From: Microvirga brassicacearum | GTDB lineage: Bacteria; Pseudomonadota; Alphaproteobacteria; Rhizobiales; Beijerinckiaceae | Direction: 5' to 3' | Assembly: GCF_008757455.1 (NCBI RefSeq) | Contig: NZ_VCMV01000013.1 | Span: 323,237 to 387,236 of the forward strand | Length of the DNA: 64,000 bases | Part shown: positions 14,488 through 57,074 of the stretch, piece after piece | How the letters are laid out: each line of letters opens with the position of its first letter | How positions within the stretch are numbered: the stretch's first letter is position 1 | Notes under the pieces: generated by a model | Database searches by the model: none | Told to the model about the DNA's origin: nothing | What the model saw: the letters and a program-made list of their open reading frames with translations, nothing else | Program-made: the position numbers and the translations under genes

Positions 14488-14506
14488 TTAGTCCCTTCGG
14501 ACGATT
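14488..14506 (+). promoter_or_regulatory. Catabolic regulon box 1 (TTAGTCCCTTCGGACGATT)
   Basis: Perfect GTCC-N4-GGAC dyad inside the 19-bp box shared by most operons of the catabolic region (consensus TTAGTCYNTTCGGACGATG). It lies 61 bp upstream of the ATG at 14568. A TGCAC-N5-GTGCA inverted repeat follows directly in the presumed leader. Confidence 0.7.
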
Positions 14507-14567
14507 GCACGAGGGGTGCACGGGCCTAGCGTGCCTCGCCCAGTAGAACCACTTGGGAAGGGCAGTC

Positions 14568-15464
14568 ATGCGCGATCTTGTCGAACCGCGCCGAGCGGAC
14601 ATTACCTATGAAACGGCCGAGCCGGTCCGCTATGAGCAGGAAGGCCCCGTCGTCTGGATCACGATGAACAGGCCGCAGTTCAACAATGCCCAGAACTCCC
14701 AGATGACCTATGCGCTGGACGATGCGTTCCGCCGCGCCGTCGATGACGATTCCGTCAAGGCCATCATCCTGCGGGGTGAGGGCAAACATTTCTCGGCAGG
14801 GCACGATATCGGCACGCCGGGCCGGGATGTGCACAAGACGTTCGAGCGCCGCCTTCCTTTCGCCGATCACACCAACAAGCCTGCGGCCGAAATGCTCTAC
14901 ACGCGCGAGCATGAGGTCTACCTTGGCATGTGCCGGCGCTGGCGCGATCTTCCCAAGCCGACCATCGCCCTTGTTCAGGGAGCCTGCATCGCCGGCGGAT
15001 TGATGCTGGCATGGGTCTGCGATCTGATCGTCGCGAGCGAGGATGCATTCTTCCAGGATCCGGTCCTGCGCATGGGGATCCCCGGTGTCGAATACTTCGC
15101 CCACGCTTTCGAGCTTCCCCCTCGCGTGGCCAAGGAATTCATCCTGCTGGGCGAACGGCTTCCTGCCGCGCGTGCGGAACAGTTCGGCATGGTCAACAAG
15201 GTGGTGCCCCGCGCCGAGCTGGAAGCCGCGGGGCGGACCATGGCGCAGCGCCTCGCGGAGCAGCCTCGTCTCGGTCTCTGGTTGACCAAGCAGGCTGTCA
15301 ATCACGTGGAGGATCTGCGCGGCAAGCGAACCGCCATGGATGCCCATTACCACATGCACCATTTCGCGCATGCGCAGAACGATCTGACGACCGGCAACAT
15401 GCTCGGCGGCCATGACGCCAAGAGCATGGCCGCGGCCAACAAGAAGCAGGCGGAGAACGGCTGA
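14568..15464 (+). CDS. Enoyl-CoA hydratase/crotonase-family protein with atypical active site
   Basis: Crotonase-fold protein, 298 aa. The CoA-binding and oxyanion-hole blocks are present (GKHFSAGHD, about residue 73, and GACIAGGLMLA, about 140). Both catalytic glutamates of ordinary hydratases are replaced: the GGGxE position reads AGGLM and the QPE position reads FFQDPVLRMGIPG. It is therefore probably not a plain 2-enoyl-CoA hydratase; crotonase relatives also hydrolyse, isomerise or cleave C-C bonds. Start: ATG at 14568 after gggaaggg, preferred over a TTG at 14553. It is first gene of an operon with two acyl-CoA dehydrogenases, under box 1. Confidence 0.85.
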   Translation: MRDLVEPRRADITYETAEPVRYEQEGPVVWITMNRPQFNNAQNSQMTYALDDAFRRAVDDDSVKAIILRGEGKHFSAGHDIGTPGRDVHKTFERRLPFADHTNKPAAEMLYTREHEVYLGMCRRWRDLPKPTIALVQGACIAGGLMLAWVCDLIVASEDAFFQDPVLRMGIPGVEYFAHAFELPPRVAKEFILLGERLPAARAEQFGMVNKVVPRAELEAAGRTMAQRLAEQPRLGLWLTKQAVNHVEDLRGKRTAMDAHYHMHHFAHAQNDLTTGNMLGGHDAKSMAAANKKQAENG

Positions 15465-15504
15465 TGGAAACGTCGCCGCGCGCCATCCGCTGACAAGGAC
15501 ATTC

Positions 15505-16668
15505 ATGAACCTGATTTATACTGAAGAGCAGAAAGCCTTCCGCCGGGAAGTAAGGTCTTGGCTCGAGGCGCATGTGCCGCGCCAGCCCTTGCCGTCCTTC
15601 GACGCGAGCCGCGAGGGTTTCGAGGCGCACCGTGAATGGGAGCGCATTCTCGACGAAGGGCGCTGGGGCATGGTGACGTGGCCGGAGCGCTATGGCGGGC
15701 GCGGCCTCGATCTCATTCAATGGCTGATCTTCGAGGAGGAATATTATCGTGCCGGCGCACCCCTGCGCGTCAACCAGAACGGCATCTTCCTGCTTGGCCC
15801 CACGCTGATGGAATATGGAACCCCCGAGCAGAAGAGCCGCTTCCTCCCGAAGATGGCCTCTGGTGACGAGATCTGGGCCCAGGCCTGGTCCGAACCGCAG
15901 GCGGGAAGCGATCTTGCGGCCGTGCGCGCCAGCGCCACCCGCGCGGGCGACGAGTACGTTCTGCGCGGCCATAAGATCTGGTCGTCGCGCGCCGTCTTCG
16001 CCGATTGGGCCTTCGGCCTCTTTCGCTCGGATCCTGGGTCGGAGCGCCACAAGGGCCTCTCCCTGATCTTTTTTCCGCTCGATGCGCCGGGCGTTCGGAT
16101 TCAAGCCATTCCGCAGATCGACGGCGAGACGGGCTTCGCAGAAATCTTCCTGGACGACGTGCGGGTGCCGGCTTTCAATCGCCTGGGGGCAGAGGGTGAG
16201 GGCTGGGCCATCTGCATGGCAACAGCCGGTTTCGAACGCGGCCTCATGCTCCGCAGCCCTGCGCGGTTTCAGGTGACGGCCCGCCGGCTCGTCGAGCTGT
16301 TCAAGACCTGCGAGAGGGATGCCGACCCGGCCATACGGGCCGCGGTCCTGAAGGCCTGGATGGATACGGACGCTTACGCGTTGTCGATCTATCACACGGC
16401 GTCCCGTCTGAACGCGGGCGGCCAGATCGGTGCTGAAGCGAGCACGAACAAGATCTTCTGGTCGGAGATGGACATCGCCATGCACAAGACCGCGCTTTCG
16501 CTCCTCGGAGCGCGGGCGGAGTTGTCCCGGCATGCCTCCGAAGCCGTCGAAGCCGGACGGTGGCTCGACGGGTACTTCTTCTCTCTCGCGGGCCCCATCT
16601 ATGCAGGCTCCAATGAGATTCAGCGCAACATCATCGCCGAGCGGATGCTCGGCCTGCCACGGGTGTGA
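15505..16668 (+). CDS. Acyl-CoA dehydrogenase, catalytic partner of a pair
   Basis: FAD-dependent alpha,beta-dehydrogenation of an acyl-CoA, 387 aa. Visible blocks are WPERYGGRGLD (about residue 54), AQAWSEPQAGSDLA (FAD/substrate contact, about 126) and the C-terminal YAGSNEIQRNIIAERMLGLP, whose glutamate is the usual catalytic base. The start is the ATG at 15505; the frame is open upstream only within the preceding gene. It overlaps the next dehydrogenase by 4 bp (GTGA). Steroid-degrading bacteria typically encode such enzymes in pairs that form alpha2beta2 heterotetramers (FadE26/27, FadE28/29 type). Confidence 0.92.
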   Translation: MNLIYTEEQKAFRREVRSWLEAHVPRQPLPSFDASREGFEAHREWERILDEGRWGMVTWPERYGGRGLDLIQWLIFEEEYYRAGAPLRVNQNGIFLLGPTLMEYGTPEQKSRFLPKMASGDEIWAQAWSEPQAGSDLAAVRASATRAGDEYVLRGHKIWSSRAVFADWAFGLFRSDPGSERHKGLSLIFFPLDAPGVRIQAIPQIDGETGFAEIFLDDVRVPAFNRLGAEGEGWAICMATAGFERGLMLRSPARFQVTARRLVELFKTCERDADPAIRAAVLKAWMDTDAYALSIYHTASRLNAGGQIGAEASTNKIFWSEMDIAMHKTALSLLGARAELSRHASEAVEAGRWLDGYFFSLAGPIYAGSNEIQRNIIAERMLGLPRV

Positions 16669-17741
16669 GCGGTCCAATGGATTTCCGTTTCTACGACGAA
16701 CAGGTCATGACCGCAGATGTGGTCCGCGCTCTCTTGGCGGAGGTCTGCAGCTCGCAGGATCTACGCCGGCTGCTGACGACCGGTGGCGCCCAGGACGAGA
16801 CGCGCTGGAAAAAACTCTGCGAACTCGGTCTCGCCGGAATCCTCGTTCCGGAAGGCGACGGCGGGCTCGGACTCGCGCCCGTCGATTTTGTGCAGATTGC
16901 CGAAGCCTGCGGATACCGCTGCCTTCCCGAACCGCTCGTAGACAATGTCGGCATCGCCCTGCCGCTCCTGGCGGCCTTCGCGGACCGGCCCGGGGTCGCC
17001 CCCTATCTGGAACGGGCTCTCGCCGGTGAGATCACGGTCGCGGTCTCCCATCCGATCAACTCTTACGTTCCTCATGCGGACAGGGACGCGGCCGCCCTCA
17101 TCGCCCGGGACGACGGTCTTCACCTCGTGGCGATTTCGCCAAAAATGCTGACGATGCAGCCGAGCGCCGACCCGTTTCGGCGTCTCCACACCATCGCATG
17201 TGATCCAGGCGACGCTACGCGCATCGCAGGCCACGAGGAAGCGGCGATCCCTCTTCGGCAGACATTGGACCGGGGAGCGCTCTTCACGGCCGCTCAGCTC
17301 TTGGGCATGGCACAGCGTTGCGTCGATCTTGCGGTCGGATACTCCAAGGAGCGTCAGCAATTCGGCCGCCCGATCGGATCGTACCAGGCCATCAAGCATC
17401 ATCTCGCCACCGTGCAGGTGAAAATCGAATTCGCACGGCCTGTCGTCTATGCGGCGGCGGCGGACCTTCCGCACGACGATCTCCATTCTCGCGCCCGCAT
17501 ATCCCAAGCCAAGCTCACCGCATCCGAGGCGGCGGATCTTGCGGCCCACACGGCGATCCAGACTCATGGGGCCATGGGCTATTCCTGGGAGGTGGACGTT
17601 CATCTCTACCTGAAGCGCATCATCGCGCTGACCCAGGTCTGGGGCGGTCCGTCTTTCCACCGGGAGCGCGTGGCGGCGCGCGTCTTCAGCGCGCCGCTCG
17701 GACCTGAGACCACCTTTGCTAGGGAGACCGACCGTGCCTGA
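16665..17741 (+). CDS. Acyl-CoA dehydrogenase, partner subunit
   Basis: Second subunit of the pair, 358 aa. It keeps the acyl-CoA dehydrogenase body (YSKERQQFGRPIGSYQAIKHHL, about residues 225-245; HTAIQTHGAMGYSWE, about 302) but at the place of the C-terminal base it reads QVWGGPSFHRERVAARV, with no YxGxNEI motif. It therefore probably supplies structure or half of the FAD site rather than full catalysis. Start GTG at 16665 overlaps the upstream stop; an ATG at 16677 is also possible. Such an unequal pair suggests a bulky, polycyclic acyl-CoA substrate. Confidence 0.88.
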   Translation: MSGPMDFRFYDEQVMTADVVRALLAEVCSSQDLRRLLTTGGAQDETRWKKLCELGLAGILVPEGDGGLGLAPVDFVQIAEACGYRCLPEPLVDNVGIALPLLAAFADRPGVAPYLERALAGEITVAVSHPINSYVPHADRDAAALIARDDGLHLVAISPKMLTMQPSADPFRRLHTIACDPGDATRIAGHEEAAIPLRQTLDRGALFTAAQLLGMAQRCVDLAVGYSKERQQFGRPIGSYQAIKHHLATVQVKIEFARPVVYAAAADLPHDDLHSRARISQAKLTASEAADLAAHTAIQTHGAMGYSWEVDVHLYLKRIIALTQVWGGPSFHRERVAARVFSAPLGPETTFARETDRA

Positions 17742-18561: not shown

Positions 18562-19476
18562 ATGACGCAGCTCGAGCCCGATAGGGGCGATGAAGCCTGT
18601 TCCGTCTACGACCGAGCGGTCCCCGTCGGTCCGGATGTCCTCCGGGTAACGGCGAACAATCCGAGTCCCTTCACCTCCTGGGGAACCAATACGTATATCG
18701 TCGGGACCGGCACACTTGCCGTCATCGATCCCGGCCCGGACGATGCCGAGCATCTCAAGCTTCTGCTTTCGATCATCGGAGACCGGTCGGTCAGCCACAT
18801 CTTCGTGACCCATACGCATCGCGATCATTCGGCGCTTGCAGCGGGCCTGAAGGCGACCACCGGCGCGAGAACCGCGGCGCATGGTCCCCAGCGGCGTTTG
18901 AAGCCGACCGGCGGGCAAGGCGAAATGCTGATAGAGGCCGGCATCGATTTCACCTTCATGCCTGATCTCGTCCTCCATGACGGGGACGTCGTCGGCGGCG
19001 ATGGGTGGTCGATCGAGGCGATCCACACACCGGGTCACGCCGCCAATCACTTGGCCTTCGGCTTGGTTGGGACCGGCACCCTGTTCTCCGGCGATCACGT
19101 GATGGGATGGTCGACGACCATCGTCGCGCCACCGGACGGCTCGATGGCGGCCTACATCGCCTCGCTCGACAAGCTGCTCGATCGGAACCATACCCTCTAC
19201 CTTCCCGGGCATGGCGCGCCGATGACGCAACCGCTCGATCGTGTCCGCACGCTTCGCGCCCATCGCGAGATGCGCGAAGCGATGGTATTGACCCGCGTCA
19301 GGGACGGAGACCGGACCGTTCCGGATATCGTACGCGCCCTCTATAGCCGGACTGATCCGGCTCTGCACGGTGCCGCGGGTCTGACCGTCTTCGCTCATCT
19401 CGAACGTTTGATCGAACGCGGCCTCGTGAGGGCAACGGGGCAGGCGACGATGGACGGCCTCTACGAGCTCGTATGA
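18562..19476 (+). CDS. MBL-fold metallohydrolase (LACTB2-like)
   Basis: Metallo-beta-lactamase-fold hydrolase, 304 aa. The metal motif THTHRDHSAL (about residues 79-88) carries the HxHxDH signature; later ligands appear in HTPGHAANH (about 156), SGDHV (about 176) and LPGHGAP (about 215). A C-terminal winged-helix-like tail (about 240-304) matches LACTB2-type proteins. It is the last gene of the operon that starts at 14568 and is separated by 134 bp from the CaiE-like gene. A thioester or lactone hydrolase acting on pathway intermediates is possible; substrate unknown. Confidence 0.85.
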   Translation: MTQLEPDRGDEACSVYDRAVPVGPDVLRVTANNPSPFTSWGTNTYIVGTGTLAVIDPGPDDAEHLKLLLSIIGDRSVSHIFVTHTHRDHSALAAGLKATTGARTAAHGPQRRLKPTGGQGEMLIEAGIDFTFMPDLVLHDGDVVGGDGWSIEAIHTPGHAANHLAFGLVGTGTLFSGDHVMGWSTTIVAPPDGSMAAYIASLDKLLDRNHTLYLPGHGAPMTQPLDRVRTLRAHREMREAMVLTRVRDGDRTVPDIVRALYSRTDPALHGAAGLTVFAHLERLIERGLVRATGQATMDGLYELV

Positions 19477-19751
19477 GGGCGGGCGCTCGTAGGGGGACCT
19501 GCGATGCCAAGCCGCTCGAGCCCGCGGACCTTCGCCTTCCTGTCCGTGCGCTCGAACCGGCAAGTTTCACGGAAGGAGCCTCAACGCTATCGCGGCCCAA
19601 TAGTCCTCCTGCTGTGGGATGATGCCTGCTCTGTGACGGGTCACGCAGAAACCGCCGATGACGCCCGGATAATCGGCTGGGTCCAAACCGCCGGCCATCT
19701 ACCGGCGCCGCGCGCTTCCGCGGCAACACTCCTCGCCTGAGGGACGAGGCA

Positions 19752-19770
19752 CTAGTCTGTTAGGACGATG
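19752..19770 (+). promoter_or_regulatory. Catabolic regulon box 2 (CTAGTCTGTTAGGACGATG)
   Basis: Second copy of the 19-bp box, 103 bp upstream of the ATG at 19874. It is the only recognisable element in the 397-bp gap 19477-19873 apart from the hairpin at 19816-19835. Short open frames in the gap have no family resemblance. Confidence 0.7.
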
Positions 19771-19815
19771 CTTTCCCGCGCAGCCATTTCCATTCTTCCG
19801 CAGTCGGTCGCGGGG

Positions 19816-19835: not shown

Positions 19836-19873
19836 AGTCGATGTTAGAGCGGCCATGGGCTTCGGAGGAAACA

Positions 19874-21061
19874 ATGAAGAAATTGCTGCTGGCGACGACT
19901 ATCCTGACGGCCACCACGCTCGCGGCCTTTGCGCAGGACAACACGGTCACGATCGGTGTCCTGAACGATCAGAGCACGTCGTTTTCCGCTCTTGGCGGGG
20001 CGGAGGTCGTACGCGCGGCCGAACTGGCGGTCAAGGATTTCGGCGGCCAGGCTCTCGGCAAACCGATCAAGATCGTGTCTGCGGACCACCAGAACAAGCC
20101 CGACGTAGCTCTCGCCATCGCACGCGAATGGCTCGAGAAGGACAATGTCGATGCAATTGCCGATGTGGCGAACTCGGCCGTGTCCTTGGGCGTGAACACG
20201 CTCATTGGTGGGAAGAAGAAGATCGGCCTTTTCGTTTCGCCGCTCACCGATCGCCCGACCGAAGCCGATTGCAACGGCCATATCGTGGCATGGGCCTATG
20301 ATGTCTATTCGACTGTGGGCACCACGGTTCAGGGCCTCCTCGATCAGGGCAACAAGTCGTTCTTCATCATGTCGAACGATTATGAGGCTGGTAAGGCACA
20401 GGAAGCTTGGGTCGAAACCGCAGTGAAAGCTGCTGGTGGTGAGGTCAAGGGTAAGGTTCGCGTGCCGCTGAACTCCACCGACTTTTCCTCCTACATCCTG
20501 CAGGCGCAGGCGTCGGGCGCGGAGGCGATCGTGATGAATGTCGGCGGCGCCGATCTCGTCAACGCGATGAAGCAGGCGCAGGAGTTCGGTATCATCGGCG
20601 GCGGACAGAAGATCGCCATCACCTTCCTGCACCAGTCCGACGCGCGGGCGATCGGCGTTGATGCCCTCAAGGGCGCTCGTTTTTCCGCACCCTGGTTCTG
20701 GAAAAAGGATGCTGAATCGGAGAAGTTCGGGCGCCGCATGATGGCGATCACCGGCAACGCGCCTGGCTGGATCGCCGCCGGCACCTATTCGGCCGTGACC
20801 GCTTATCTGAAGGCAGTCGAGAAGGCTGGCACGGACGAATCCACCGCCGTCCTCAAGGCGCTTCGCGAGATCAAGGTCGACGACTTCTTCGTCAGCAACG
20901 GCAAACTTTTCCCGAACGGCCGCCTCATCCACGACATGTACCTGCTTGAGGTCAACACGCCGGGTAAGGTCTCCGAGAAGGACGACTTCTTCAAGCTGGT
21001 CACCACCGTGCCCGCAGAGAGGGCCTTCAAGCCCTATTCCGAGAGCGCCTGCAAGCTGTAA
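19874..21061 (+). CDS. Liv-type ABC transporter substrate-binding protein
   Basis: Periplasmic receptor of the branched-chain-amino-acid (HAAT) family, 395 aa. The Sec signal MKKLLLATTILTATTLAAFA is cleaved near residue 20. The mature protein begins QDNTVTIGVLNDQS, the usual first beta strand of type-1 binding proteins. A strong ribosome site (ggaggaaac) sits in front of the ATG at 19874; an ATG at 19841 is less likely. In aromatic, steroid and hydroxy-acid degraders this family often imports carboxylates rather than amino acids, and the enzymes around it support that here. First gene of an operon running to 26355. Confidence 0.93.
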   Translation: MKKLLLATTILTATTLAAFAQDNTVTIGVLNDQSTSFSALGGAEVVRAAELAVKDFGGQALGKPIKIVSADHQNKPDVALAIAREWLEKDNVDAIADVANSAVSLGVNTLIGGKKKIGLFVSPLTDRPTEADCNGHIVAWAYDVYSTVGTTVQGLLDQGNKSFFIMSNDYEAGKAQEAWVETAVKAAGGEVKGKVRVPLNSTDFSSYILQAQASGAEAIVMNVGGADLVNAMKQAQEFGIIGGGQKIAITFLHQSDARAIGVDALKGARFSAPWFWKKDAESEKFGRRMMAITGNAPGWIAAGTYSAVTAYLKAVEKAGTDESTAVLKALREIKVDDFFVSNGKLFPNGRLIHDMYLLEVNTPGKVSEKDDFFKLVTTVPAERAFKPYSESACKL

Positions 21062-29466: not shown

Positions 29467-29601
29467 GCGTTTCTCCCGTCCGTTCTCTCGTTTCGCATCA
29501 TCATGCATTGGCCTGTCGGCGGATTTGCGCCTCGTCCGGATGGATTAATGGGCGACCCCGCCGCCCATTCTCGCCATCGCTGCCGAAATCGCCGATCCGC
29601 G

Positions 29602-30972
29602 TCAGCCGCGGGAGGCATAGCGCCCGGCCACCCGACCGAAGATCAGCGCCATGCCGACAAAGGTTCCGGACATGTAGCCGGCGCCGTGGAAGCCGCCGGT
29701 CACCTCGCCCGCGGCGTAGAGGCCTTGTATCTGCTCGCCGAACACGGTGCGCACGTTCATGCTGGTATCGACCGTCAGTCCGCCATTGAAGTGCGTAGTG
29801 CCCGCTTGGCAGATGACGGCGTGAAACGGAGGCTCGGCGATCGGCAGCAGCGCGCCCGCATCTCCCACGAGGTGAGTCCGGTCGAAATCCACGTCTCCGG
29901 CGCCGGCGAGTTGCGCATTGTATCGTTCGATGCTGGCGCGAACCCCTTCGGCGTCGAATCCTTCCGCCGCCAGCGCCTGCGCCAGCCCCTCGATCGTCGC
30001 CGCCTCCAATTCGCGAAAGCCTGTCAGAACCTTGCCCATCATGGTCGCGGAGTAATCGGCTTTCATCCGGCTGTCGTACACCTGCGCGCACACAGCCCCG
30101 GGCTGCGACAGCAGCGCCCAGCATGTGTCGATGTAGAGGTCGCTCTCGCGGCAGAAGCGCTGGCCGCTGCGGTTCAGCGCGATTGCGCCGGCATAGAGAA
30201 CCATCGCTCCCTTGCCCGTCTCCGGATGGGAGGGGGCGGTCGGCGCGACGCCCAAGGTCATGTACGAGATGCCCGCGCCAAGCCCCATGCCCATGAGCAG
30301 CCCATCGCCGCGCGAACCCTGGCCGGTGAGCGGAAGAATGCCTTCTGCCCCCGGACGACCGAAGTTTCGGATCAGTTCGGGGCTCCGGGTGAAGCCACCT
30401 GTGGCGATCACGACGCCGTTGGCCGCGCGAATGCGCCTTGTGCCGGAAGCGCACTCGTACTCGACCGCGCCGATGCGCGATCCATCCATGAGGATCCGGC
30501 GCGCGCGCGCACCGGTTTGGATGCGAACGCCCCGCTCGCGTGCGGCGGCCTCAAGTCTGGTGACGATCTCCGCCCCTCCCGCCATCTCTTCTCCGGAAAG
30601 CTCGTGCGCCCAAGGCCTGCTCATATGTGCGAAGCGGAAGGTCCGGACGAAGCCAATGCCGAGTTGTTCGAGGCGCAGGAACGTCCCGGGCGCCTCGTCG
30701 ACATAGAGACGCGTCAGGTCTTCCTGGCAGTCGTCATGATGTGAGTGGATCAGGTCCTCGTAGAGCTCCTCGCGGCTGCCGGCCTCGAGGGGCGTCTCGC
30801 AAAGGGCCACGTAGGCGCCGGACAACCTGGTGCTACCGCCCGTCTGCTCCTCCGATTCCAGCACCAGCACCGAGGAGCCGGCATCGGCGGCTTCGACCGC
30901 CGCCATCATCCCGGCGGCTCCCGAACCGATGATCACGACATCGGCCACCTCGTCATGTGAGTTGTCCATCAT
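29602..30972 (-). CDS. FAD-dependent oxidoreductase of the fumarate reductase / 3-ketosteroid dehydrogenase superfamily
   Basis: Flavoprotein of 456 aa. The FAD dinucleotide fold is ADVVIIGSGAAGMMAAVEAA (about residues 9-28) with the ribose-binding glutamate in LVLESEEQTGGSTRLSGA. The C-terminal FAD block is GLYAAGEVTGGFHGAGYMSG (about 420-440). The start is one of two adjacent ATGs at 30972/30969 after GGAGGG. Relatives include fumarate reductases, tricarballylate dehydrogenases and 3-ketosteroid-delta1-dehydrogenases; this protein is shorter than typical KstD (about 510-560 aa), so I do not call it KstD. Box 3m at 31016-31034 lies 43 bp upstream. Confidence 0.87.
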   Translation of the reverse strand: MMDNSHDEVADVVIIGSGAAGMMAAVEAADAGSSVLVLESEEQTGGSTRLSGAYVALCETPLEAGSREELYEDLIHSHHDDCQEDLTRLYVDEAPGTFLRLEQLGIGFVRTFRFAHMSRPWAHELSGEEMAGGAEIVTRLEAAARERGVRIQTGARARRILMDGSRIGAVEYECASGTRRIRAANGVVIATGGFTRSPELIRNFGRPGAEGILPLTGQGSRGDGLLMGMGLGAGISYMTLGVAPTAPSHPETGKGAMVLYAGAIALNRSGQRFCRESDLYIDTCWALLSQPGAVCAQVYDSRMKADYSATMMGKVLTGFRELEAATIEGLAQALAAEGFDAEGVRASIERYNAQLAGAGDVDFDRTHLVGDAGALLPIAEPPFHAVICQAGTTHFNGGLTVDTSMNVRTVFGEQIQGLYAAGEVTGGFHGAGYMSGTFVGMALIFGRVAGRYASRG

Positions 30973-31015: not shown

Positions 31016-31034
31016 CATCGTCCGTATGAAGGGT
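31016..31034 (-). promoter_or_regulatory. Catabolic regulon box 3m (ACCCTTCATACGGACGATG)
   Basis: Minus-strand copy of the box, 43 bp upstream of the flavoprotein start. The right half GGACGATG is intact; the left half is weak but nearly identical to the box at 41872. It pairs with the plus-strand box at 31173 in the divergent region 30973-31272. Confidence 0.6.
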
Positions 31035-31172: not shown

Positions 31173-31191
31173 TTAGTCTCATTGGACGATG
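31173..31191 (+). promoter_or_regulatory. Catabolic regulon box 4 (TTAGTCTCATTGGACGATG)
   Basis: Plus-strand copy of the box, 81 bp upstream of the ATG at 31273 (48 bp from the alternative ATG at 31240). It faces the operon that runs to 38427. Confidence 0.7.
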
Positions 31192-31272
31192 TTGGCGGCG
31201 GCCATATGGGGCAACTCCTAAGACCATCAGCGCCGGTTCATGGCGGATGAGAAGAGGGAGCGGCCTTTCACG

Positions 31273-32283
31273 ATGAGAGCGGTTCTTTGCAGGGATTTCG
31301 GGCCACGCGCCGAACTGCGGATCGAGGATGTCGCGGCACCAATTCCGCGTGAAGACGAGGTCCTGATCGCGGTCGAGGCCTGCGGCGTGAACTTCTTCGA
31401 CGGGCTGGTCGTCGAAGGCAAATATCAGACCCGGCCCGATCGCCCCTTCTCTCCCGGTAGCGAAGTGGCCGGTGTGGTGACGGCGGTCGGCGAGCGCGTG
31501 ACGGCGATCGCCCCGGGCATGCGCGTTCTCGGCTTTGCCGGATTCGGCGGCTATGCGGAGCAGGCCATCGTTCCCGCGCCTCATGTCTTTCCCATTCCGG
31601 ATGAAATGAGTTTCGTGGAGGCTGCCGGCTTCCTGATCACATACGGGACGTCACATCACGCTCTGAAGGACCGGGCGCAGATCACGCCCGGTGAAACCCT
31701 TCTCATTCTTGGTGCCGCAGGCGGCGTCGGACTGACGGCGGTCGAACTCGGAAAGTGCATGGGAGCACGCGTGATCGCTGCTGCTTCCAGTGTCGAGAAA
31801 CTTGCCCTCTGCCGGACCTACGGGGCCGACGAAACGATCAATTATTCAAGCGAGGATCTGCGCCAGCGGGTCAAGGACATCACCGGCGGTCGCGGCGTGG
31901 ACGTAATCTACGACCCGGTCGGCGGATCCATGACTGAAACCGCCTTGCGCAGCCTCGCCCTGTTCGGACGGCACCTCGTCATTGGATTCGCAGCGGGCGA
32001 TATCCCGAAAATTCCACTGAACCTTCTCCTGCTCAAGCAGAGTTCTCTCATCGGCGTGTTCTGGGGAGCGCACGCCCGCGCGGCCCCCGCCAAGAATGCC
32101 GGCAACATCGCGGAGCTTCTCCGGTGGTTCGCGGAGGGAAAGCTCAAGCCGCACATTTTTGCATCCTATCCGATCGACAGGTTCAGCGAGGCCCTCGATC
32201 TCGTGATGGAAAGGGGTGTGCAGGGCAAGGTCGTTCTCACGACTGCCGACAGTCGTACTCATAAGGGCAATGCTTCGTCATGA
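31273..32283 (+). CDS. NADPH:quinone oxidoreductase family (zinc-free MDR)
   Basis: Medium-chain reductase of the QOR type, 336 aa. The N-terminal GroES-like domain begins MRAVLCRDFGP and the nucleotide site is LGAAGGVGLTAVELGK (about residues 146-161). No structural-zinc cysteine cluster is seen. The chosen ATG at 31273 matches the family start; an ATG at 31240 would add 11 mostly charged residues. It overlaps the next gene by 4 bp. It may reduce an enoyl-CoA or a quinone-like intermediate; the QOR family also contains enoyl-CoA reductases. Confidence 0.88.
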   Translation: MRAVLCRDFGPRAELRIEDVAAPIPREDEVLIAVEACGVNFFDGLVVEGKYQTRPDRPFSPGSEVAGVVTAVGERVTAIAPGMRVLGFAGFGGYAEQAIVPAPHVFPIPDEMSFVEAAGFLITYGTSHHALKDRAQITPGETLLILGAAGGVGLTAVELGKCMGARVIAAASSVEKLALCRTYGADETINYSSEDLRQRVKDITGGRGVDVIYDPVGGSMTETALRSLALFGRHLVIGFAAGDIPKIPLNLLLLKQSSLIGVFWGAHARAAPAKNAGNIAELLRWFAEGKLKPHIFASYPIDRFSEALDLVMERGVQGKVVLTTADSRTHKGNASS

Positions 32284-36134: not shown

Positions 36135-37343
<1,209 letters not shown>

Positions 37344-37356
37344 GCGGTAGACGGAC

Positions 37357-38427
37357 ATGGACGCGAACCGCTTCATTGGAACCGAACCGCTGCCGCCGCA
37401 GAGCCGGATCGATCCGGAGCGTCTGCGACGCTATCTGCAGGCGCATCTGTCTCAATGCTCGGGCGACGTGACGATCGAGCGCTTTCGAGGCGGGCAATCG
37501 AACCCGACGCTTCTCCTGACTTTCTCGGGCGGCACGCGGCTCGTTTTGCGCAAGAAGCCGGATGGCAAGCTCCTGGCCTCGGCCCATGCGGTGGACCGGG
37601 AGCACCGTGTCGTCAGCGCGCTCGCCGGAAGCGGCGTTCCCGTCGCGCGCACGCATCACCTTTGCGAGGACGAGAGCATCGTGGGGGCGATGTTCTACGT
37701 GATGGACTACGTGGAAGGGCGCTCCTTCTGGGACCCGGCGCTTCCGGAGCTTTCTTCGGAGGAGAGGAGGGCGATCTATCGCGAGATGAACCGCGTCGTC
37801 GCCCGCCTCCACACGGTGGATTACGCGGCAAGGGGCCTCGAGACCTTCGGCAGGCCGATGAACTACATCGGGCGTCAGGTTGCGCGCTGGACGACGCAGT
37901 ATCGTGCCTCCGAGACGATATCCATCCCGGCGATGGACCGGCTTATCGAATGGCTCCCCGACAATATTCCCGCCGAGTCCCGGCACGCGCTCCTGCACGG
38001 CGATTTCCGGATCGACAATCTCATCTTCGATGCCCGTGAGGCGAAGATTATCGCCGTGGTCGATTGGGAATTGTCGACGCTGGGCGATCCCATGGCCGAT
38101 TTCGCGTATCACATGCTGACGTGGCATTTCTCGCCCACGCCCTTCCGGGGATTGTCTGGGCTCGATCTCGCGTCGCTCGGAATTCCAGACGAGCGCACCT
38201 ACCGTGATCTCTATCTCGAGGCGACGAGGCAGGCGAACGTCTCGGATCGCCAGTGGTATTCCTATCTTGCGTTCAGCCTTTTCCGCGTCGCGGCCATCCG
38301 CCAGGGCATCATGAAGCGCGTTGTCAATGGCACTGCGTCGAACGTCCATGCGCGTGAGGCGGGCGCGCTCGCAGGGGCCGTTGCGGAGCAGGGATGGCGA
38401 TATGCCGAAAGGGCGATGTGTGCATGA
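37357..38427 (+). CDS. APH-type phosphotransferase (ACAD10/11 kinase, LvaA-like)
   Basis: Kinase of the aminoglycoside-phosphotransferase fold, 356 aa. Catalytic loop HGDFRIDNLIF (about residues 213-223) holds the HxDxxxxN residues, and the metal-binding aspartate is in VVDWELSTLGDPMADFAYH (about 232-250). The N-terminal lobe has RGGQSNPTLLL and LVLRKKP with the ATP-contacting lysine. The gene follows the dehydrogenase by 13 bp and is last in the operon. A drug-resistance role is unlikely; phosphorylation of a hydroxyacyl-CoA is the best reading. Confidence 0.87.
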   Translation: MDANRFIGTEPLPPQSRIDPERLRRYLQAHLSQCSGDVTIERFRGGQSNPTLLLTFSGGTRLVLRKKPDGKLLASAHAVDREHRVVSALAGSGVPVARTHHLCEDESIVGAMFYVMDYVEGRSFWDPALPELSSEERRAIYREMNRVVARLHTVDYAARGLETFGRPMNYIGRQVARWTTQYRASETISIPAMDRLIEWLPDNIPAESRHALLHGDFRIDNLIFDAREAKIIAVVDWELSTLGDPMADFAYHMLTWHFSPTPFRGLSGLDLASLGIPDERTYRDLYLEATRQANVSDRQWYSYLAFSLFRVAAIRQGIMKRVVNGTASNVHAREAGALAGAVAEQGWRYAERAMCA

Positions 38428-38533: not shown

Positions 38534-38552
38534 TTAGTCCCTTCAGACGATG
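38534..38552 (+). promoter_or_regulatory. Catabolic regulon box 5 (TTAGTCCCTTCAGACGATG)
   Basis: Box copy with AGAC for GGAC in the right half, 75 bp upstream of the thiolase TTG start at 38628. The spacing equals that seen for several other operons. Confidence 0.68.
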
Positions 38553-38627
38553 CCGCCGCGCCGTCCGAATCCTACGCAAGGAATGCATGGCAAGCCGACA
38601 GGCCGCAGCCCTTTCAGGAGAACTCTC

Positions 38628-39883: not shown

Positions 39884-40684
39884 CTATTTCAGCAGGTTCT
39901 CCAGCGCGTCGATCTGCTGCCTGAGACCGTCGATCGTGCGTCGGACTCCTTCGGAATCGCAGGGCTGGTTGCTCGATGCCTTCAATCCTTGGAGCGCGAG
40001 ATCGGCGATCACGTCCGCAATCTCCGCCGGCGTCTTCAGGCCGTTCGGCGAGTACCAGCGCGACGTCCAGTTGGCCATGCCGATGACGGCGAAGGCGGCA
40101 ATCTTGGGATCGACCTCCCGGAACTCGCCATTGGCGATGCCTTCCGAGATGCAGCGGACATAGAAGTCGTAAATATGGCGACGCCCGAGATTGTAGAGCG
40201 GGCCGAGTTCCTCCGGAATCTGCGTCTCCAGCCGGGAGAGAAGAATGAAGCGGGCCCCGGAGGAGAGCCGTCGGACGATCCCGTCGACGACGGCGCGGCG
40301 CAGCCTTTCCGTTGCCGAAAGGCCGGTTTCCTCGATCAGCTCCTGCAGCAGGTGGGACGGCGTCAGCGCCTCCGCCTCCACGAGGGCAGCAAGAATCTCT
40401 TCCTTGTTGCGGAAGTAGTGGTAGACCGCGGAACGTCCCAGGCCGAGGGCCTTCGCGATATCGTTGATGCTGGTCTGTACGTAACCCTTCTTGTCGAAGA
40501 GTTCGGCCGCGATGTCGATGAGCTGTTCGCGCACCAGCTCCTTGCGGGGATTGGTCGCGAGCTTCGTCTCCCTGGCCCGCAGAGCGGCGGACCATTCCGA
40601 GGTCTTCTCCTGGAGCCCGATCGCTGCCGGCTCTCCCGGGTTTCTCGCCCCATGCGTCGTATTGCTCAAGGTAGGTTCCTTCAT
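39884..40684 (-). CDS. TetR-family transcriptional regulator (KstR2-like position)
   Basis: Regulator of about 266 aa. The TetR helix-turn-helix lies in the region VREQLIDIAAELFDKKGYVQ through TSINDIAKALGLGRSAVYHYF (about residues 50-90), after an unusually long 45-residue N-terminal tail. The frame is open to 40738, but a near-perfect promoter (TATAAT, plus-strand 40715-40720) lies inside that extension, so the ATG at 40684 is the likely start. A predicted coiled-coil tail ends the protein (IDGLRQQIDALENLL). Converges on the thiolase. It may sense an acyl-CoA intermediate as KstR2 does. Confidence 0.88.
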   Translation of the reverse strand: MKEPTLSNTTHGARNPGEPAAIGLQEKTSEWSAALRARETKLATNPRKELVREQLIDIAAELFDKKGYVQTSINDIAKALGLGRSAVYHYFRNKEEILAALVEAEALTPSHLLQELIEETGLSATERLRRAVVDGIVRRLSSGARFILLSRLETQIPEELGPLYNLGRRHIYDFYVRCISEGIANGEFREVDPKIAAFAVIGMANWTSRWYSPNGLKTPAEIADVIADLALQGLKASSNQPCDSEGVRRTIDGLRQQIDALENLLK

Positions 40685-40714
40685 CAGGTCTCGGGGACGC
40701 CCGGCCGAGTGTCT

Positions 40715-40742
40715 CATTATAGCATCATGCTCGGCCATGTAA
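40715..40742 (-). promoter_or_regulatory. Promoter of the TetR-type gene
   Basis: Minus-strand -35 CTTACA and -10 TATAAT separated by 16 bp. Transcription would start near 40707, downstream of the ATGs at 40738 and 40717, leaving 40684 as first usable ATG. It overlaps the 3' end of the upstream SDR gene. Confidence 0.5.
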
Positions 40743-41871: not shown

Positions 41872-41890
41872 ATCCTTCATTCGGACGATA
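41872..41890 (+). promoter_or_regulatory. Catabolic regulon box 6a (ATCCTTCATTCGGACGATA)
   Basis: Weak-left, strong-right copy of the box, 142 bp upstream of ipdC. Its near twin is the minus-strand box at 31016. Confidence 0.5.
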
Positions 41891-41930: not shown

Positions 41931-41949
41931 GTAGTTCATTCAGACGATG
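41931..41949 (+). promoter_or_regulatory. Catabolic regulon box 6b (GTAGTTCATTCAGACGATG)
   Basis: Second box in the divergent region 41664-42032, 83 bp upstream of ipdC. The two boxes are 59 bp apart, start to start. Apart from them the 369-bp region holds no gene. Confidence 0.65.
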
Positions 41950-42032
41950 CCCGGTCAGGCCGGGCATCGCATTCAGATCGGGGTATCATGGCCGTCGCTC
42001 GGTGGCCTCCAAGCCTCGGGAAAGGTTCGTGA

Positions 42033-44804: not shown

Positions 44805-45896
44805 TCAAACCGCTTGGCGCGGACGCTCCCCCAGGAGAACGACGCTGTTGAGAACCAGCCGCACCAGCTCGGTCTGGCGGGTGATGCCGCTCTTCGAGAA
44901 GATCGAGCGCAGATGGGCGCGGGCGGTGTTCCGGCTGATCTCGAGCGAGTTCGCCGCTTCGTCGAGCGACAGGCCGACGGTCAAGCGCCGGGCGACGGCG
45001 GCCTCTGCCGGCGTGAGATCGAAGAGCTGCCGCACAAGGTCGCCCTCGATCGCCGGAACCGCCTCCGAGTCGCGCAGGAAGACGACCACGGCGGACTGGG
45101 CCGAAAGACCTTTGTGGGAACTGGCGCTGATCGGGCGCACGATGAGGCCGAGATTCTTCGATCCGGACTGTTTCGTCAGAGATAGCCCGCGCACGTCGGA
45201 CGCTCCGGGATTTCCGCCGTCCTGCAGAGCCGCCTTAATCGCGGACTGGAGTGCCCGGTCTTCGTTCGAGCATCGGGCGTACAGGCGTCCTCCCTTCACG
45301 CGCAAGCTGGATCCTTCGGTCAGAATATCATCCGCCGTCGCGGAGGTGCGGACGACCTTGCCGGCGCGATCCAGGATGACGACGCCCACGCAGAGACGGT
45401 CGACGACGTCCGAATAGAGCGTCCGCTCGATTTCCGTCGCGCCCATGCGCGACGCCATTTCGAGCCCGCGGGCAAGATGCGACACGAGAATTTCGCAGAC
45501 GGATTTCTCCTCCTGATCGAACGGCGCATGCGCGAGAGGACGGACAATCGCGAGCTTGTAGCAGGTGCTTCCTTCGACGCCGAAATCCGTGGCGCTCGTG
45601 CGGTGGCAGTTCTCGAGAAGCTCCGACACTTCGCGGCTGCGGGTCGAGCCTGCCATCAGGATGAATCCCGTCTCGGCCATGCCGTCGGAGCCGGCGCTGT
45701 TGCGGGCCATGGCGGTGTAGGAATTTCCGTCGCTAGGTTTGTCCCGGTTCTCCACGGTAAGGACGACCGCACTGGCGCCGAACTGCTCGCGGATCAGCTC
45801 AAGCGACATTCCCATCGGCGCCCCGCTGAGCACGTTATCGAAGACCTTGTTGCAGAACTGCCCGAACGCGATGATCGATCTTGAATAAAAGGTCAC
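44805..45896 (-). CDS. LuxR-family transcriptional regulator (TeiR-like candidate)
   Basis: DNA-binding regulator of 363 aa. The C-terminal LuxR/GerE helix-turn-helix is LTPAEAAVARRLTVGLSLDE through NSLEISRNTARAHLRSIF (about residues 294-338). The N-terminal 280 residues form a sensor with a PAS-like middle (VILDRAGKVVRTSATADDIL, about 205). Start: GTG at 45896, 8 nt after AAGGAGG; an upstream GTG at 46106 would give a long disordered extension. LuxR-type activators such as TeiR of Comamonas control steroid catabolism, so this is a good candidate for the local activator. Convergent with ipdF, sharing the terminator. Confidence 0.87.
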   Translation of the reverse strand: MTFYSRSIIAFGQFCNKVFDNVLSGAPMGMSLELIREQFGASAVVLTVENRDKPSDGNSYTAMARNSAGSDGMAETGFILMAGSTRSREVSELLENCHRTSATDFGVEGSTCYKLAIVRPLAHAPFDQEEKSVCEILVSHLARGLEMASRMGATEIERTLYSDVVDRLCVGVVILDRAGKVVRTSATADDILTEGSSLRVKGGRLYARCSNEDRALQSAIKAALQDGGNPGASDVRGLSLTKQSGSKNLGLIVRPISASSHKGLSAQSAVVVFLRDSEAVPAIEGDLVRQLFDLTPAEAAVARRLTVGLSLDEAANSLEISRNTARAHLRSIFSKSGITRQTELVRLVLNSVVLLGERPRQAV

Positions 45897-46142
45897 TTCG
45901 GCTTCCTCCTTGATTGTTTTTTGTTGGCGTCGGTCCTGCTGCCTCTTGTCAGGGCGGCTTGTGATCTCGGGATCCGAGGTGCTGCTCATGCGACGGCGAT
46001 CGACATGCGGGCAGGCCGGATTCCTCGTCCCTCGCAGCATGCGAAATGGCATCGGCGGGACGGGGCGGGAAAGATCCTTGGACGGCCATGGACATTGCTT
46101 CCTCACCGTAAGGTGCCGGAGAATTTGACGATGCTGTTACAA
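45897..46142. other. Upstream region of the LuxR-type gene
   Basis: No convincing gene. A frame continuous with the LuxR-type gene reads through 45897-46106, but it is rich in Arg and Pro and lies beyond the good ribosome site. Probably the 5' leader and promoter zone. Confidence 0.5.
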
Positions 46143-52289: not shown

Positions 52290-52308
52290 CTACTCGATCC
52301 GGACGATG
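52290..52308 (+). promoter_or_regulatory. Catabolic regulon box 7 (CTACTCGATCCGGACGATG)
   Basis: Box copy with intact right half, 57 bp upstream of the ATG at 52366, in the divergent region 52038-52365, which otherwise shows no gene. Confidence 0.58.
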
Positions 52309-52365
52309 CGCGCGCCCGCGCCACGTCCCGTAATGGTGGTGAAACATGCTTCCGGGAGATCGCGC

Positions 52366-53274
52366 ATGAAGATCCTGATCGTCGGTGGAACGGGCATGAT
52401 CGGCGGCCACGCGGCGGATTTTCTCGCCGCGCAGGGCAATTCGATCACGATCGCCGCCCGCAGGCCACCGCCGTCCACCGTACCGATGGCGGCCTATCCC
52501 ATTCTGCTCGGCGACTACACGCAGGGCAACTTCACCGAGGCCGACCTCGCCTCCTTCGACGCCGTTCTCTTCGCGGCTGGCAACGACATCAGGCATTTGC
52601 CGAAGGACATGGACGAGCAGGAATTCTGGGACCGAACCCAGATCGAAGGCGTTCCGCGATTCGTGGCCCTGGCTAAGCGCGCGGGCGTCCGGCGCGTCGT
52701 GCAGCTCGGCAGCTATTATCATCAGGTGATGCCGCACCTGATCGCGGAGAACGCTTATGTCCGCGCACGGTACGGTGCCGACGAGGGCGCGCGTGCGCTG
52801 GCGACACCGGACTTCAACATCTCGACGCTCAATCCGCCCTCGATCGTCGGAGTCATTCCCGGCGTCCCCGCCAGGCGCTACGAGACCCTGACGGCATGGG
52901 CGAAGGGACAGCGTCCCGAGATTCCCGATTACGCTCCCGCCGGCGGCACGAACTACATGTCCGTGCGCTCCCTCTGCGAGGCGATCTGGGGTGCCCTGCA
53001 GCATGCGGAACCGGGCAGGGCCTACCTGATCGGCGACGCCAATCTTTCTTTCCGCGACTTCTTCCAGATGATCTTCGACGCGGCCGGCAGCTCCCGCCGC
53101 CTGGAGGAGCGTGACCAGGAGCATCCCTTGCTGCCGGATGCATTCATCGTTCCGGGCCGCGGCAAGGTTCTCGCCTATGAGCCTGATCCGGTCGAGACCG
53201 CTCTCCTCGGCTACACGCGCGGGGATGTGCGGCGGGCCGTGAACGAGGTCGTCGCCATGGTCGATGCGGCATGA
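52366..53274 (+). CDS. NAD(P)-dependent epimerase/dehydratase family protein
   Basis: Extended-SDR Rossmann protein, 302 aa. The N-terminus MKILIVGGTGMIGGHAADFL carries the GxxGxxG cofactor motif, followed by an ARR motif after strand 2 that suggests NADP(H). The SYYHQ block (about residue 118) is where YxxxK would be, but the lysine is not obvious. Start ATG at 52366 after gggagatc; the frame is open upstream over box 7. It overlaps the next gene by 4 bp. Role: reduction or dehydrogenation of a ring carbonyl is possible; not proven. Confidence 0.85.
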   Translation: MKILIVGGTGMIGGHAADFLAAQGNSITIAARRPPPSTVPMAAYPILLGDYTQGNFTEADLASFDAVLFAAGNDIRHLPKDMDEQEFWDRTQIEGVPRFVALAKRAGVRRVVQLGSYYHQVMPHLIAENAYVRARYGADEGARALATPDFNISTLNPPSIVGVIPGVPARRYETLTAWAKGQRPEIPDYAPAGGTNYMSVRSLCEAIWGALQHAEPGRAYLIGDANLSFRDFFQMIFDAAGSSRRLEERDQEHPLLPDAFIVPGRGKVLAYEPDPVETALLGYTRGDVRRAVNEVVAMVDAA

Positions 53275-55294: not shown

Positions 55295-56545
55295 CTATTC
55301 CGCAAGCCTGACGCCCGGCGTCGGTTGCGGCGCGACGGAGGAATTGTCTTCCGCCACGAATTGCGCGACGGACCAGCCCCGCCGGTCGGTGTCCGACGCC
55401 ACGAAGTTATAGAAGTTGGAATCGCCCGTGGCCTGATGATCCGAGCGGAACGATCGCTTCCCGCCGACCGTGTCGAAGGTGTTCTCCTCCAGGACTTTCG
55501 CGACGGCTTTGGTCGATGAAGCGCCCGCCTTGGCGATCGCCTGAACGTAGACGTCGATGGCCGCATGGGAAACTCCCACATAGCCGCTCGGCCTGTCGTC
55601 GCCTGTGCGGGCGACATAATCGTCATAGAGGCGCTTGGCGGCCGGGACCCGGTCCACATAAGCGCCGGAATACCAGTCCGAGGCCGTCCAGAAGTTCGGC
55701 GGCGTGCGCTTGCCGAGGGCGTTGGCGAGCACGACGTCGTTGCCCATGTCCATGAAGACCTTGATCTTCCGTTCCCACCCGAAGGGGCGGGCCTGCTGGA
55801 CCAGGGTCGCGGGATCGGGAAATGACAGCATCAGTCCCTCGACGGGACCCGCCATGATCTGCGCGATTTCGTTCTTGAAGTCGTTGGCGCCCACCTTGAC
55901 CTTGATGACGTCGGTGATCACCGGCTCCTTGCCGGCAATCTCAGGATAATAGCGCCTGATGCCCGCCGCGAAGGCGCGCCATTGGGAGGCTCCCGCCTCG
56001 TTGTCCGTGGTGATCCCGCTCCAATGCCGGATCTCGGGATATTTCTGTGCCGCGAGCCGCCCGGCTGCACGCCCGCGGATCGCCGCGTTCTCGTTGAGAC
56101 GAAAGCCCAGCGGATTGAAGTTCTCATGCGTGAGCGAGTCTCCGTTCGCATGCAGCGTCATGAAGAGGCCGTCGATCGACTGCAGAATCCCGAAGGCCGC
56201 GAGTGCGGTCGCGGTGAAAATCCCGCCCGTGAACAGCTTCACGCCGAGACCGGACAGCTCCCGCATGGCGGCGACGGTTTCGTTCGGGTTGATCTTGTCA
56301 TCGCGCACGATGAGCTCGATCGGACGGCCCATCACTCCGCCAGCCTTGTTCAATTGTTCGACGGCGATCTCCGCGCCGATCTTGACATCGCGTCCGAGGT
56401 CCGGAGCGAACCCCGTGAGGGGAGCGAGCAGGCCGATCCGGATCGGGCCGGAATCCTGCGCGAAGACGTGACGGCCAAGGGACATGGTGCCGAGCGCCGT
56501 GGCGGAGCCGATCACCAGGCCTCGCCTACTTATACCGTGTGACAT
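55295..56545 (-). CDS. Liv-type substrate-binding protein with Tat-like signal
   Basis: Receptor of the second Liv importer, 416 aa. The N-terminus MSHGISRRGLVIGSATALG has a twin-arginine-like motif, so export by Tat is likely, unlike the Sec signal of the first Liv receptor. The mature start is PIRIGLLAPLTGFAPDLGRD and the block GGVMGRPIELIVRDDK is typical of the HAAT family. Start ATG at 56545 after ctgggagga; the longer frame is rejected. It is transcribed away from its presumed permease (57149) and shares the divergent region with it. Confidence 0.9.
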   Translation of the reverse strand: MSHGISRRGLVIGSATALGTMSLGRHVFAQDSGPIRIGLLAPLTGFAPDLGRDVKIGAEIAVEQLNKAGGVMGRPIELIVRDDKINPNETVAAMRELSGLGVKLFTGGIFTATALAAFGILQSIDGLFMTLHANGDSLTHENFNPLGFRLNENAAIRGRAAGRLAAQKYPEIRHWSGITTDNEAGASQWRAFAAGIRRYYPEIAGKEPVITDVIKVKVGANDFKNEIAQIMAGPVEGLMLSFPDPATLVQQARPFGWERKIKVFMDMGNDVVLANALGKRTPPNFWTASDWYSGAYVDRVPAAKRLYDDYVARTGDDRPSGYVGVSHAAIDVYVQAIAKAGASSTKAVAKVLEENTFDTVGGKRSFRSDHQATGDSNFYNFVASDTDRRGWSVAQFVAEDNSSVAPQPTPGVRLAE

Positions 56546-56594
56546 CGTGATCCTCCCAGATCCTGCTTGTCTTTGGTTTCGTGCGAACGGCGCG

Positions 56595-56921
56595 TCATTC
56601 CGCCGGTTCGTAGGTCCACGGCATGCCATCGACGAGAATGGCCTTGCTGACGGATGAAGCGAAGCGGGCGCGGACCGACTCCTGATATTCATCGGAATAA
56701 TAGAAGGCGCGGGCCTGATCCCATGACGGGAACTCCACGACGAAGAACCGGTCCGGCGTCCAGCCGCCCTCGAGGGTCTCCAGTCGGCCCTCCTGGCCCT
56801 CGACACTGCGGATCATGAAGCGCCCGCCATGCCGGTCGAGAATGGGTCGGGCGGCGGAGCGATAGCTCTCGTATTGCTCGCGGTCGTTGATCGAGATCTC
56901 GAAGATGAGATAAGCGGCCAA
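56595..56921 (-). CDS. DUF1330-family small protein
   Basis: Second DUF1330 protein, 108 aa, starting at TTG 56921 (LAAYLIFEISINDREQYESY) behind GGGAGGG. The TTG choice is supported by the ribosome site and by exact alignment with the first DUF1330 gene at 21103, which also uses TTG. Blocks: GGWTPDRFFVVEFPSWDQARAFYYSDEY. It is the first gene of a two-gene minus operon with the Liv-type receptor, under the minus-strand box at 57010. No function is known. Confidence 0.82.
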   Translation of the reverse strand: MAAYLIFEISINDREQYESYRSAARPILDRHGGRFMIRSVEGQEGRLETLEGGWTPDRFFVVEFPSWDQARAFYYSDEYQESVRARFASSVSKAILVDGMPWTYEPAE

Positions 56922-57009
56922 TCTACCCTCCCGGGTTCCACGAAGACTCTGCCAGCTTCGCGCCAGACCTGCTTCACGCAAGTATTCAGAGAGCAACTTG
57001 TAAGGATGT

Positions 57010-57028
57010 AATCGTCCGAACAGACTAA
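57010..57028 (-). promoter_or_regulatory. Catabolic regulon box 8m (TTAGTCTGTTCGGACGATT)
   Basis: Near-consensus copy on the minus strand, 88 bp upstream of the DUF1330 TTG start. Confidence 0.7.
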
Positions 57029-57055
57029 GACGGAGATCGGCCGGCATGCGCCAAT

Positions 57056-57074
57056 TGGATCAATCGGGACGATG
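57056..57074 (+). promoter_or_regulatory. Catabolic regulon box 9 (TGGATCAATCGGGACGATG)
   Basis: Plus-strand copy with full right half and weak left half, 74 bp upstream of the GTG at 57149. Together with box 8m it gives one box per direction in the divergent region 56922-57148. Confidence 0.55.

Follow-up and report, generated by a model that had tools for sequence, protein, structure and literature searches.

What controls a cluster of steroid-ring genes that carries the same short dyad in front of operon after operon? We asked this of a 64,000-nucleotide stretch of Microvirga brassicacearum DNA (contig NZ_VCMV01000013.1, positions 323,237 to 387,236; G000:C15:323237-387236 in our numbering; hereafter the window), part of a 5.2-Mb genome in 82 contigs, and the whole analysis was computation from sequence. 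By their Pfam matches, its genes form a steroid C/D-ring-type cluster: coenzyme A (CoA)-transferase subunits, a nitronate monooxygenase (NMO)-type flavoprotein (ipdC-like), enoyl-CoA hydratases, acyl-CoA dehydrogenases, a thiolase, short-chain dehydrogenases (SDRs) and ABC importers. An earlier sequence-only reading had listed ten copies of a 19-bp box and had proposed that one regulator binds them, leaving open whether this was the LuxR-type protein at 44805 or the TetR-type protein at 39884. We conclude, with a probability of roughly 0.8, that the box is the predicted operator of a single LuxR-type activator, the 44805 protein, in a steroid-ring regulon. The box is real, non-random and conserved, and across genomes it goes with the LuxR-type protein (44805) and not with the TetR-type protein (39884).

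All ten listed strings were found at the coordinates given for them. At up to three mismatches the consensus matches seven times (14488, 19752, 31173, 38534, 41931, 57010 and, on the minus strand, 29530) against 0.11 expected, and none of 100 shuffled sequences reaches seven. Over the 5.2-Mb genome it has 17 matches compared with four for the reversed control, and five of the six genome matches with at most two mismatches lie inside the window. The sixth, C40:81897, falls within a 487-residue open reading frame (ORF) outside the cluster and was set aside. We also built a weight matrix from 62 distinct 19-mers of loci L068-L145, with the window and two Microvirga loci left out. Six window sites exceed 18 bits (14488, 28.3; 19752, 26.2; 31173, 29.1; 38534, 31.3; 41931, 26.1; 57010, 27.3), while 20 simulated sequences have 0.05 such sites on average; the other listed copies are weaker, with 15.0 bits at 52290, 10.0 at 41872, 6.7 at 31016 and less than 6 at 57056. 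As the earlier reading had stated, the window ends are free of the box: before 14488 and after 57010 all matches stay below 12 bits, the best being 59739 with 10.9. Base counts over 78 non-redundant sites describe an imperfect 18-bp dyad, TNGTCY-N4-RGACNA, of which the promoter-proximal half, GGACGATG, is the best fixed and of which at least one copy, from Collimonas (L175), has perfect symmetry. Covariation of box positions 7 and 12 was considered and dropped, box 38534 combining C7 with A12.

The sites are also kept in related genomes. Judged by the ipdC-like protein, the closest named relatives are Microvirga subterranea (94% identity) and M. puerhi (89%), and footprints were drawn against the former and, where alignable, the latter. 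At each of the six strong sites 18 or 19 of the 19 bases are retained, amid flanks of 0.76-0.87 identity: box 14488 has 19/19 in M. puerhi and 18/19 in M. subterranea, 19752 has 19/19 in M. subterranea, 31173 has 18/19 and 19/19 in the two relatives, 38534 and 41931 each have 19/19 and 18/19, and 57010 has 19/19 in both. Summed for M. subterranea, this amounts to 112 of 114 bases, compared with 95.8 expected from flank identity. The weaker sites 41872 and 52290 are identical in both relatives (19/19), and 31016, aligned in M. subterranea only, keeps 18/19 in flanks of 0.69 identity. The listed site at 57056..57074 (+), TGGATCAATCGGGACGATG, keeps only 11/19 and 14/19 and scores below 6 bits, and we rejected it. 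The list of ten thus reduces to nine conserved copies, six of them strong and three degenerate (31016, 41872 and 52290).

The box extends well beyond Microvirga. Among 80 loci collected around ipdC relatives, it is found at up to three mismatches in 24 of 25 from Hyphomicrobiales or unassigned alphaproteobacteria (L066-L086, L090, L095, L128 and L138), the lone miss being the 7-kb L080, and in loci of Pandoraea, Sterolibacterium, Collimonas, Pseudoduganella, Nevskia, Oceanospirillaceae, Azospirillum, Maritimibacter and Stappia (two of three). In many Hyphomicrobiales loci it stands before ipdC at about the same place as box 41931. Burkholderia and Paraburkholderia loci have no match to the first consensus at up to three mismatches; they have one matrix box of 23-27 bits, some 1 kb upstream of ipdA, and in the two loci checked this box lies 62-68 bp ahead of a gene. 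These scores are not independent because the training set included Paraburkholderia copies of this ipdA-region box. A second candidate there (around 19000-19600, also in Collimonas L131) lies inside an SDR gene and was therefore treated as coding sequence and not counted. In Pandoraea, boxes precede genes for an SDR, a periplasmic binding protein, a thiolase, a CoA-transferase, an enoyl-CoA hydratase and a DcaP-type porin. Two CoA-transferase genes of the window have E values of 8.8e-82 and 3.9e-52 against the solved chains 6co6/6con, which we take to be IpdAB; ipdC, echA20 and similar names are used here by analogy. ipdA/ipdB-type CoA-transferase genes of steroid C/D-ring breakdown are among the box-marked genes, together with importers. 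The earlier suggestion of one regulon for a steroid-like pathway and its importers is supported by these matches, by the boxes kept in Microvirga relatives and by those before ipd genes elsewhere.

We then asked which protein the box accompanies. Whole-genome searches covered 49 genomes, from 50 of the 80 ipdC loci. A relative of the LuxR-type protein is found in 48 of these 49, its best E value always 4e-46 or better; the sole genome without one, a 2.5-Mb Acetobacteraceae metagenome-assembled genome (MAG), is also without the box. The TetR-type protein is found at E 1e-20 in 29 of 50 genomes, the window genome included. Counting the pattern TAGTCYNNTNRGACGATG at one mismatch, with the reversed pattern as control, we found 326 boxes against 38 in the 49 LuxR-positive genomes, of which 42 have at least three (control 3/49). 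The 20 LuxR-positive genomes that have no TetR-type protein hold 111 boxes against 20, and 14 of them have at least three. Background is low: 71 matches in the sample of the window's order (198 other genomes) and 66 in 198 of Pandoraea's order, or about 0.35 on average for each of these 396. G098, from the window's order, lacks the box; it carries a TetR homologue (E 1.6e-57), and its LuxR match reaches only 6.2e-19. In Pandoraea's order sample, where at most eight candidates per genome were scored, just one more genome, G340, carries the LuxR-type protein at E 1e-35; it has 10 boxes against one. Finally, seven plasmid loci picked by their LuxR homologue, out of 19 plasmid records found through it, contain 20 matrix matches of at least 14 bits, compared with none in the reversed sequences.

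Two further observations concern the LuxR genes themselves. Autoregulation as a general rule was rejected: a match of at least 14 bits lies in the flanks of 17 of 32 LuxR loci, and the window has none. Among loci of other LuxR homologues in the order, one of 29 (L038) has a box of at least 14 bits. There, at 2747-2765 (genome G140, same order), an exact pattern match lies less than 1 kb from a more distant LuxR homologue; a wider branch of the LuxR family may use the same box.

The position of the box within its promoters bears on the kind of regulator. When the 78 strong sites were aligned on the box, an AT-rich hexamer appeared at positions 40-45 (AT 0.59, against 0.29 at positions 22-39). 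Position 41 is A (A41) in 57 of 78 sites, compared with a mean of 15.7 and a maximum of 34 at 123 other offsets. Five sites are located well within called ORFs, and without them the count is 54 of 73; one of the five, box 31173, is among them only because its ORF is over-extended. The same base recurs at different promoters within one genome: the A41 counts are 8/9 for Pandoraea, 8/8 for Collimonas, 6/7 for G340, 7/8 for Aquamicrobium and 5/6 each for M. subterranea and the window, and the total over nine genomes is 53/69. If the hexamer is taken as the -10 element, with A at -11 and T at -7, the 18-bp dyad falls at about -51 to -34, its centre near -42.5. A box fixed there has the geometry of an activator beside RNA polymerase, not of a repressor. 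Activation of the lux-box type is known as class II, and the half-site of the lux box differs in sequence from that of our box. Both features of such a site are found here for the predicted start sites, namely a dyad of about 18-20 bp and a fixed distance to the -10 element that gives a centre near -42.5. For the lux box, a published distance to the start site downstream is 42.5 nt (PMC7585371; this and later statements from the literature refer to excerpts of the papers cited).

The candidate binder and activator is encoded at 44805..46106 (-) and has up to 433 residues; its true start is uncertain, and the match in M. subterranea aligns from residue 50 onwards. GerE is its only Pfam match at E 1e-5, a threshold at which no autoinducer-binding domain is matched. 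In a structural model, residues 28-178 form a GAF domain and the C terminus a LuxR helix-turn-helix (HTH), and a PAS domain is probable: for residues 194-300, VqmA, EL222 and FixL are among the Foldseek matches, at low TM-score, in a region barely covered by a second fold comparison. The autoinducer-binding chains of RhlR and SdiA also occur among the fold matches and were given no weight, mostly having a root-mean-square deviation of about 13, and no solved structure is close in sequence at E 0.001. Within the recognition helix, NT.RAHLR is invariant across 30 aligned proteins. The protein is probably a TesR/TeiR-like steroid-responsive activator, for which DNA binding, activation, ligand and orthology with TesR are predictions. 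In the mechanism that we propose, a dimer would bind the 18-bp imperfect dyad TNGTCY-N4-RGACNA, and the box at -51 to -34 would replace a good -35 element and adjoin RNA polymerase. A steroid or steroid-derived ring metabolite would be sensed, probably by the GAF/PAS region, and the activated protein would turn on six or more operons of C/D-ring breakdown and ABC import.

The other regulator of the cluster, a TetR-family protein at 39884..40738 (-) with a Pfam TetR_C_24 match, is the less likely binder. As a repressor released by a ring-derived CoA ester it would parallel KstR2, which in actinobacteria controls C/D-ring genes (PMC6678751, PMC8399759); its gene sits in the cluster, it is present in 21 of 23 genomes of Hyphomicrobiales-type loci searched, and KstR2 chains match it at E 4e-9, though below many other TetRs. 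We nevertheless consider it improbable that the box is the operator of such a repressor, given the 111 boxes (control 20) in the 20 LuxR-positive genomes that do without this protein, a fixed position near -42.5 that suits an activator, the absence from all 50 genomes of any with the TetR and no LuxR relative, and the boxless G098. Of the two candidates left open by the sequence-only reading, co-occurrence and the fixed -10 distance favour a LuxR-type activator over a TetR repressor. As a separate observation, a TetR_C_24 regulator is found in the ipd cluster of most of the Hyphomicrobiales-type loci examined, although a review states that KstR1 and KstR2 homologues are absent from bile-acid-degrading Proteobacteria.

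The two proteins might also divide the work in alphaproteobacteria, LuxR activating through strong boxes and TetR repressing through degenerate half-boxes or another element. In favour of such a layered switch, 31016, 41872 and 52290 are conserved despite a poor left half, and among 12-mers upstream of the TetR gene the one common to most loci is a half-box (8 of 22 loci); the pdc cluster of Caenibius tardaugens has an adjacent TetR/LuxR pair (PMC12239570). We regard this arrangement as possible but doubtful, the degenerate sites being few and a separate TetR palindrome not having been found: none with exact 6-bp arms is common to more than four of 22 loci. Fixed spacing to a -10-like element would also fit a box that is part of an alternative sigma-factor promoter and not a regulator's site. 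An 18-bp dyad that is perfectly symmetric in Collimonas L175 and tracks a LuxR protein makes this very improbable, although sigma factors themselves were not searched for.

Several observations count against activation by the 44805 protein. ipdC guided both the choice of genomes and, through boxes in its vicinity, the refinement of the pattern, which makes the co-occurrence partly circular; G340 and the plasmid loci are less biased tests of the link between box and LuxR-type protein. Seven of the 49 LuxR-positive genomes have fewer than three matches, and the reversed control itself reaches three in 3 of the 20 genomes without TetR. The LuxR gene of the window has no strong box of its own. Some LuxR loci have weak boxes only (C. 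necator N-1, one at 15.0 bits; two Sphingobium loci, 18-22 bits), and among 54 loci scored with the matrix, L097, L121 and L141 have no match of 11 bits and L130, L132 and L143 reach only 13-18. Burkholderia lata has no box at one mismatch; since it does have a single one, with two mismatches to the pattern, before the ipdA region, we dropped it as a counterexample, although the matrix score of that box is not independent. A41 is less regular in Aminobacter (6/11), M. puerhi (4/8) and an Oceanospirillaceae MAG (4/6). For Hyphomicrobiales and Maritimibacter together it is found in 37 of 56 sites and NANNNT in 9 of 56; the remaining sites, mostly from beta- and gammaproteobacteria with one Azospirillum and one Stappia, show NANNNT in 20 of 22. 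Since orthologous promoters are related by ancestry, the counts are not independent trials, and the z of 7.9 for A41 overstates their independence. And binding, activation, ligand, start sites and TesR/TeiR membership are all things that we infer from sequence alone.

How does this system compare with known ones? TesR/TeiR of Comamonas testosteroni, which is of the LuxR type, is described as regulating steroid genes positively (PMC13101464, PMC6895838, PMC6678751, PMC8399759, PMC8700777, PMC12239570), and 44805 likewise encodes a LuxR-type HTH protein (GerE) inside a steroid-degradation cluster with ipd-type genes. TeiR has been reported as a polar, membrane-located kinase (PMC6678751), whereas the 44805 model is GAF-PAS-HTH, a comparison made by description only. 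One paper quotes tesR-like genes as restricted to C. testosteroni (PMC6895838), and another names two TeiR-like genes in P. stutzeri Chol1 (PMC8399759); relatives of the 44805 protein are spread over alpha-, beta- and gammaproteobacteria. According to unpublished data cited in PMC8399759, P. stutzeri Chol1 degrades cholate with a strong delay once a TeiR-like gene has been deleted; the same source calls the regulatory mechanisms of bile-acid-degrading Proteobacteria largely unknown. The excerpts on TesR/TeiR mention no such box, and a literature search that reached mostly outside subscription journals, again in excerpts, found no report of one at steroid genes. Unlike the lux system, the 44805 protein has a GAF/PAS region and lacks an autoinducer-binding Pfam match at E 1e-5. 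VqmA and EL222 (PAS/LOV plus LuxR HTH), among its Foldseek matches, also have a sensor domain fused to a LuxR HTH, but the modelled 44805 protein has an extra N-terminal GAF domain, TM-scores are low, and a different ligand would be expected. The mycobacterial KstR2 regulon similarly places C/D-ring genes under one regulator (PMC6678751), there a TetR repressor and here a predicted activator. The EdcR operator of C. tardaugens is also a palindrome in a proteobacterial steroid-degradation cluster, but it differs in sequence and overlaps the -10 box, and EdcR represses estrogen genes (PMC8700777).

The box would therefore define a new operator, and its genes a new regulon, under LuxR-type activation; of their wide distribution we found no description in the literature searched. 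On balance we lean towards the view that a conserved GAF-PAS-LuxR activator and an 18-bp box at -42.5 form a common switch of steroid-ring catabolism across alpha-, beta- and gammaproteobacteria. If this is true, it would be a proteobacterial counterpart of the KstR2 regulon with the opposite sign, and the box would serve as a marker for genes of steroid uptake and breakdown. Genome scans for it allow regulon prediction, including importers, a porin and unknown enzymes, and the defined box, candidate protein and predicted promoter geometry make the proposal directly testable.

The individual sites of the window, with functions predicted from Pfam, are as follows. Box TTAGTCCCTTCGGACGATT (14488..14506, +), with the -10-like TAGCGT at 14527-14532, precedes enoyl-CoA hydratase/acyl-CoA dehydrogenase genes (ORFs 14553-15464, 15412-16668 and 16665-17741). 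Box CTAGTCTGTTAGGACGATG (19752..19770, +; CATTCT at 19791-19796) lies upstream of a periplasmic binding protein gene (19841-21061) and ABC importer genes. Box TTAGTCTCATTGGACGATG (31173..31191, +; element CAACTC at 31212-31217) is followed by a run at 31240-38427 of putative reductase, fadB-like, ipdA, ipdB, acyl-CoA dehydrogenase and APH-fold genes, with ipdA and ipdB assigned against 6co6/6con. A thiolase gene follows TTAGTCCCTTCAGACGATG (38534..38552, +; TACGCA at 38573-38578); its listed ORF start, 38550, falls within the box, and translation therefore probably begins further downstream. Downstream of GTAGTTCATTCAGACGATG (41931..41949, +; CATTCA at 41970-41975) are ipdC-like (42033), enoyl-CoA hydratase (43121) and SDR (43916) genes. 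On the minus strand, TTAGTCTGTTCGGACGATT (57010..57028), with the element CTGAAT at 56984-56989 and T instead of A at position 41, precedes a periplasmic binding protein gene (55295-56806).

Among the weaker copies, the intermediate, conserved CTACTCGATCCGGACGATG (52290..52308, +) lies upstream of an NAD-dependent epimerase-type gene (ORF 52306-53274), whose true start is probably downstream of the box. The degenerate, conserved element ATCCTTCATTCGGACGATA (41872..41890, +) lies between the SDR/TetR genes on the minus strand and ipdC on the plus strand and has no -10 match at the usual distance. Degenerate but conserved, ACCCTTCATACGGACGATG (31016..31034, -) stands before a flavin adenine dinucleotide (FAD)-binding oxidoreductase gene (29602-30972, -; Pfam FAD_binding_2), whose product resembles flavocytochrome fumarate reductases and urocanate reductase and, more weakly, 3-ketosteroid dehydrogenases. 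A box-like match absent from the earlier list, 29530..29548 (-), scores 13.6 bits, lies 22 bp before an SDR ORF and keeps 18/19 bases in M. subterranea.

Three observations were made outside the window. In Pandoraea (L236, 12995) the DcaP-type porin gene behind a box encodes a possible steroid uptake channel. Two strong boxes of Aminobacter (L239, 14663 and 14734), about 70 bp apart and facing away from each other, form a divergent promoter pair. A Vibrio alfacsensis plasmid from turbot (L253, 1-30000) carries an ipd-type cluster with annotated CoA-transferase and nitronate monooxygenase, a LuxR homologue and three boxes, and the genes that these boxes precede are annotated as acyl-CoA dehydrogenase, electron-transfer flavoprotein and enoyl-CoA hydratase.

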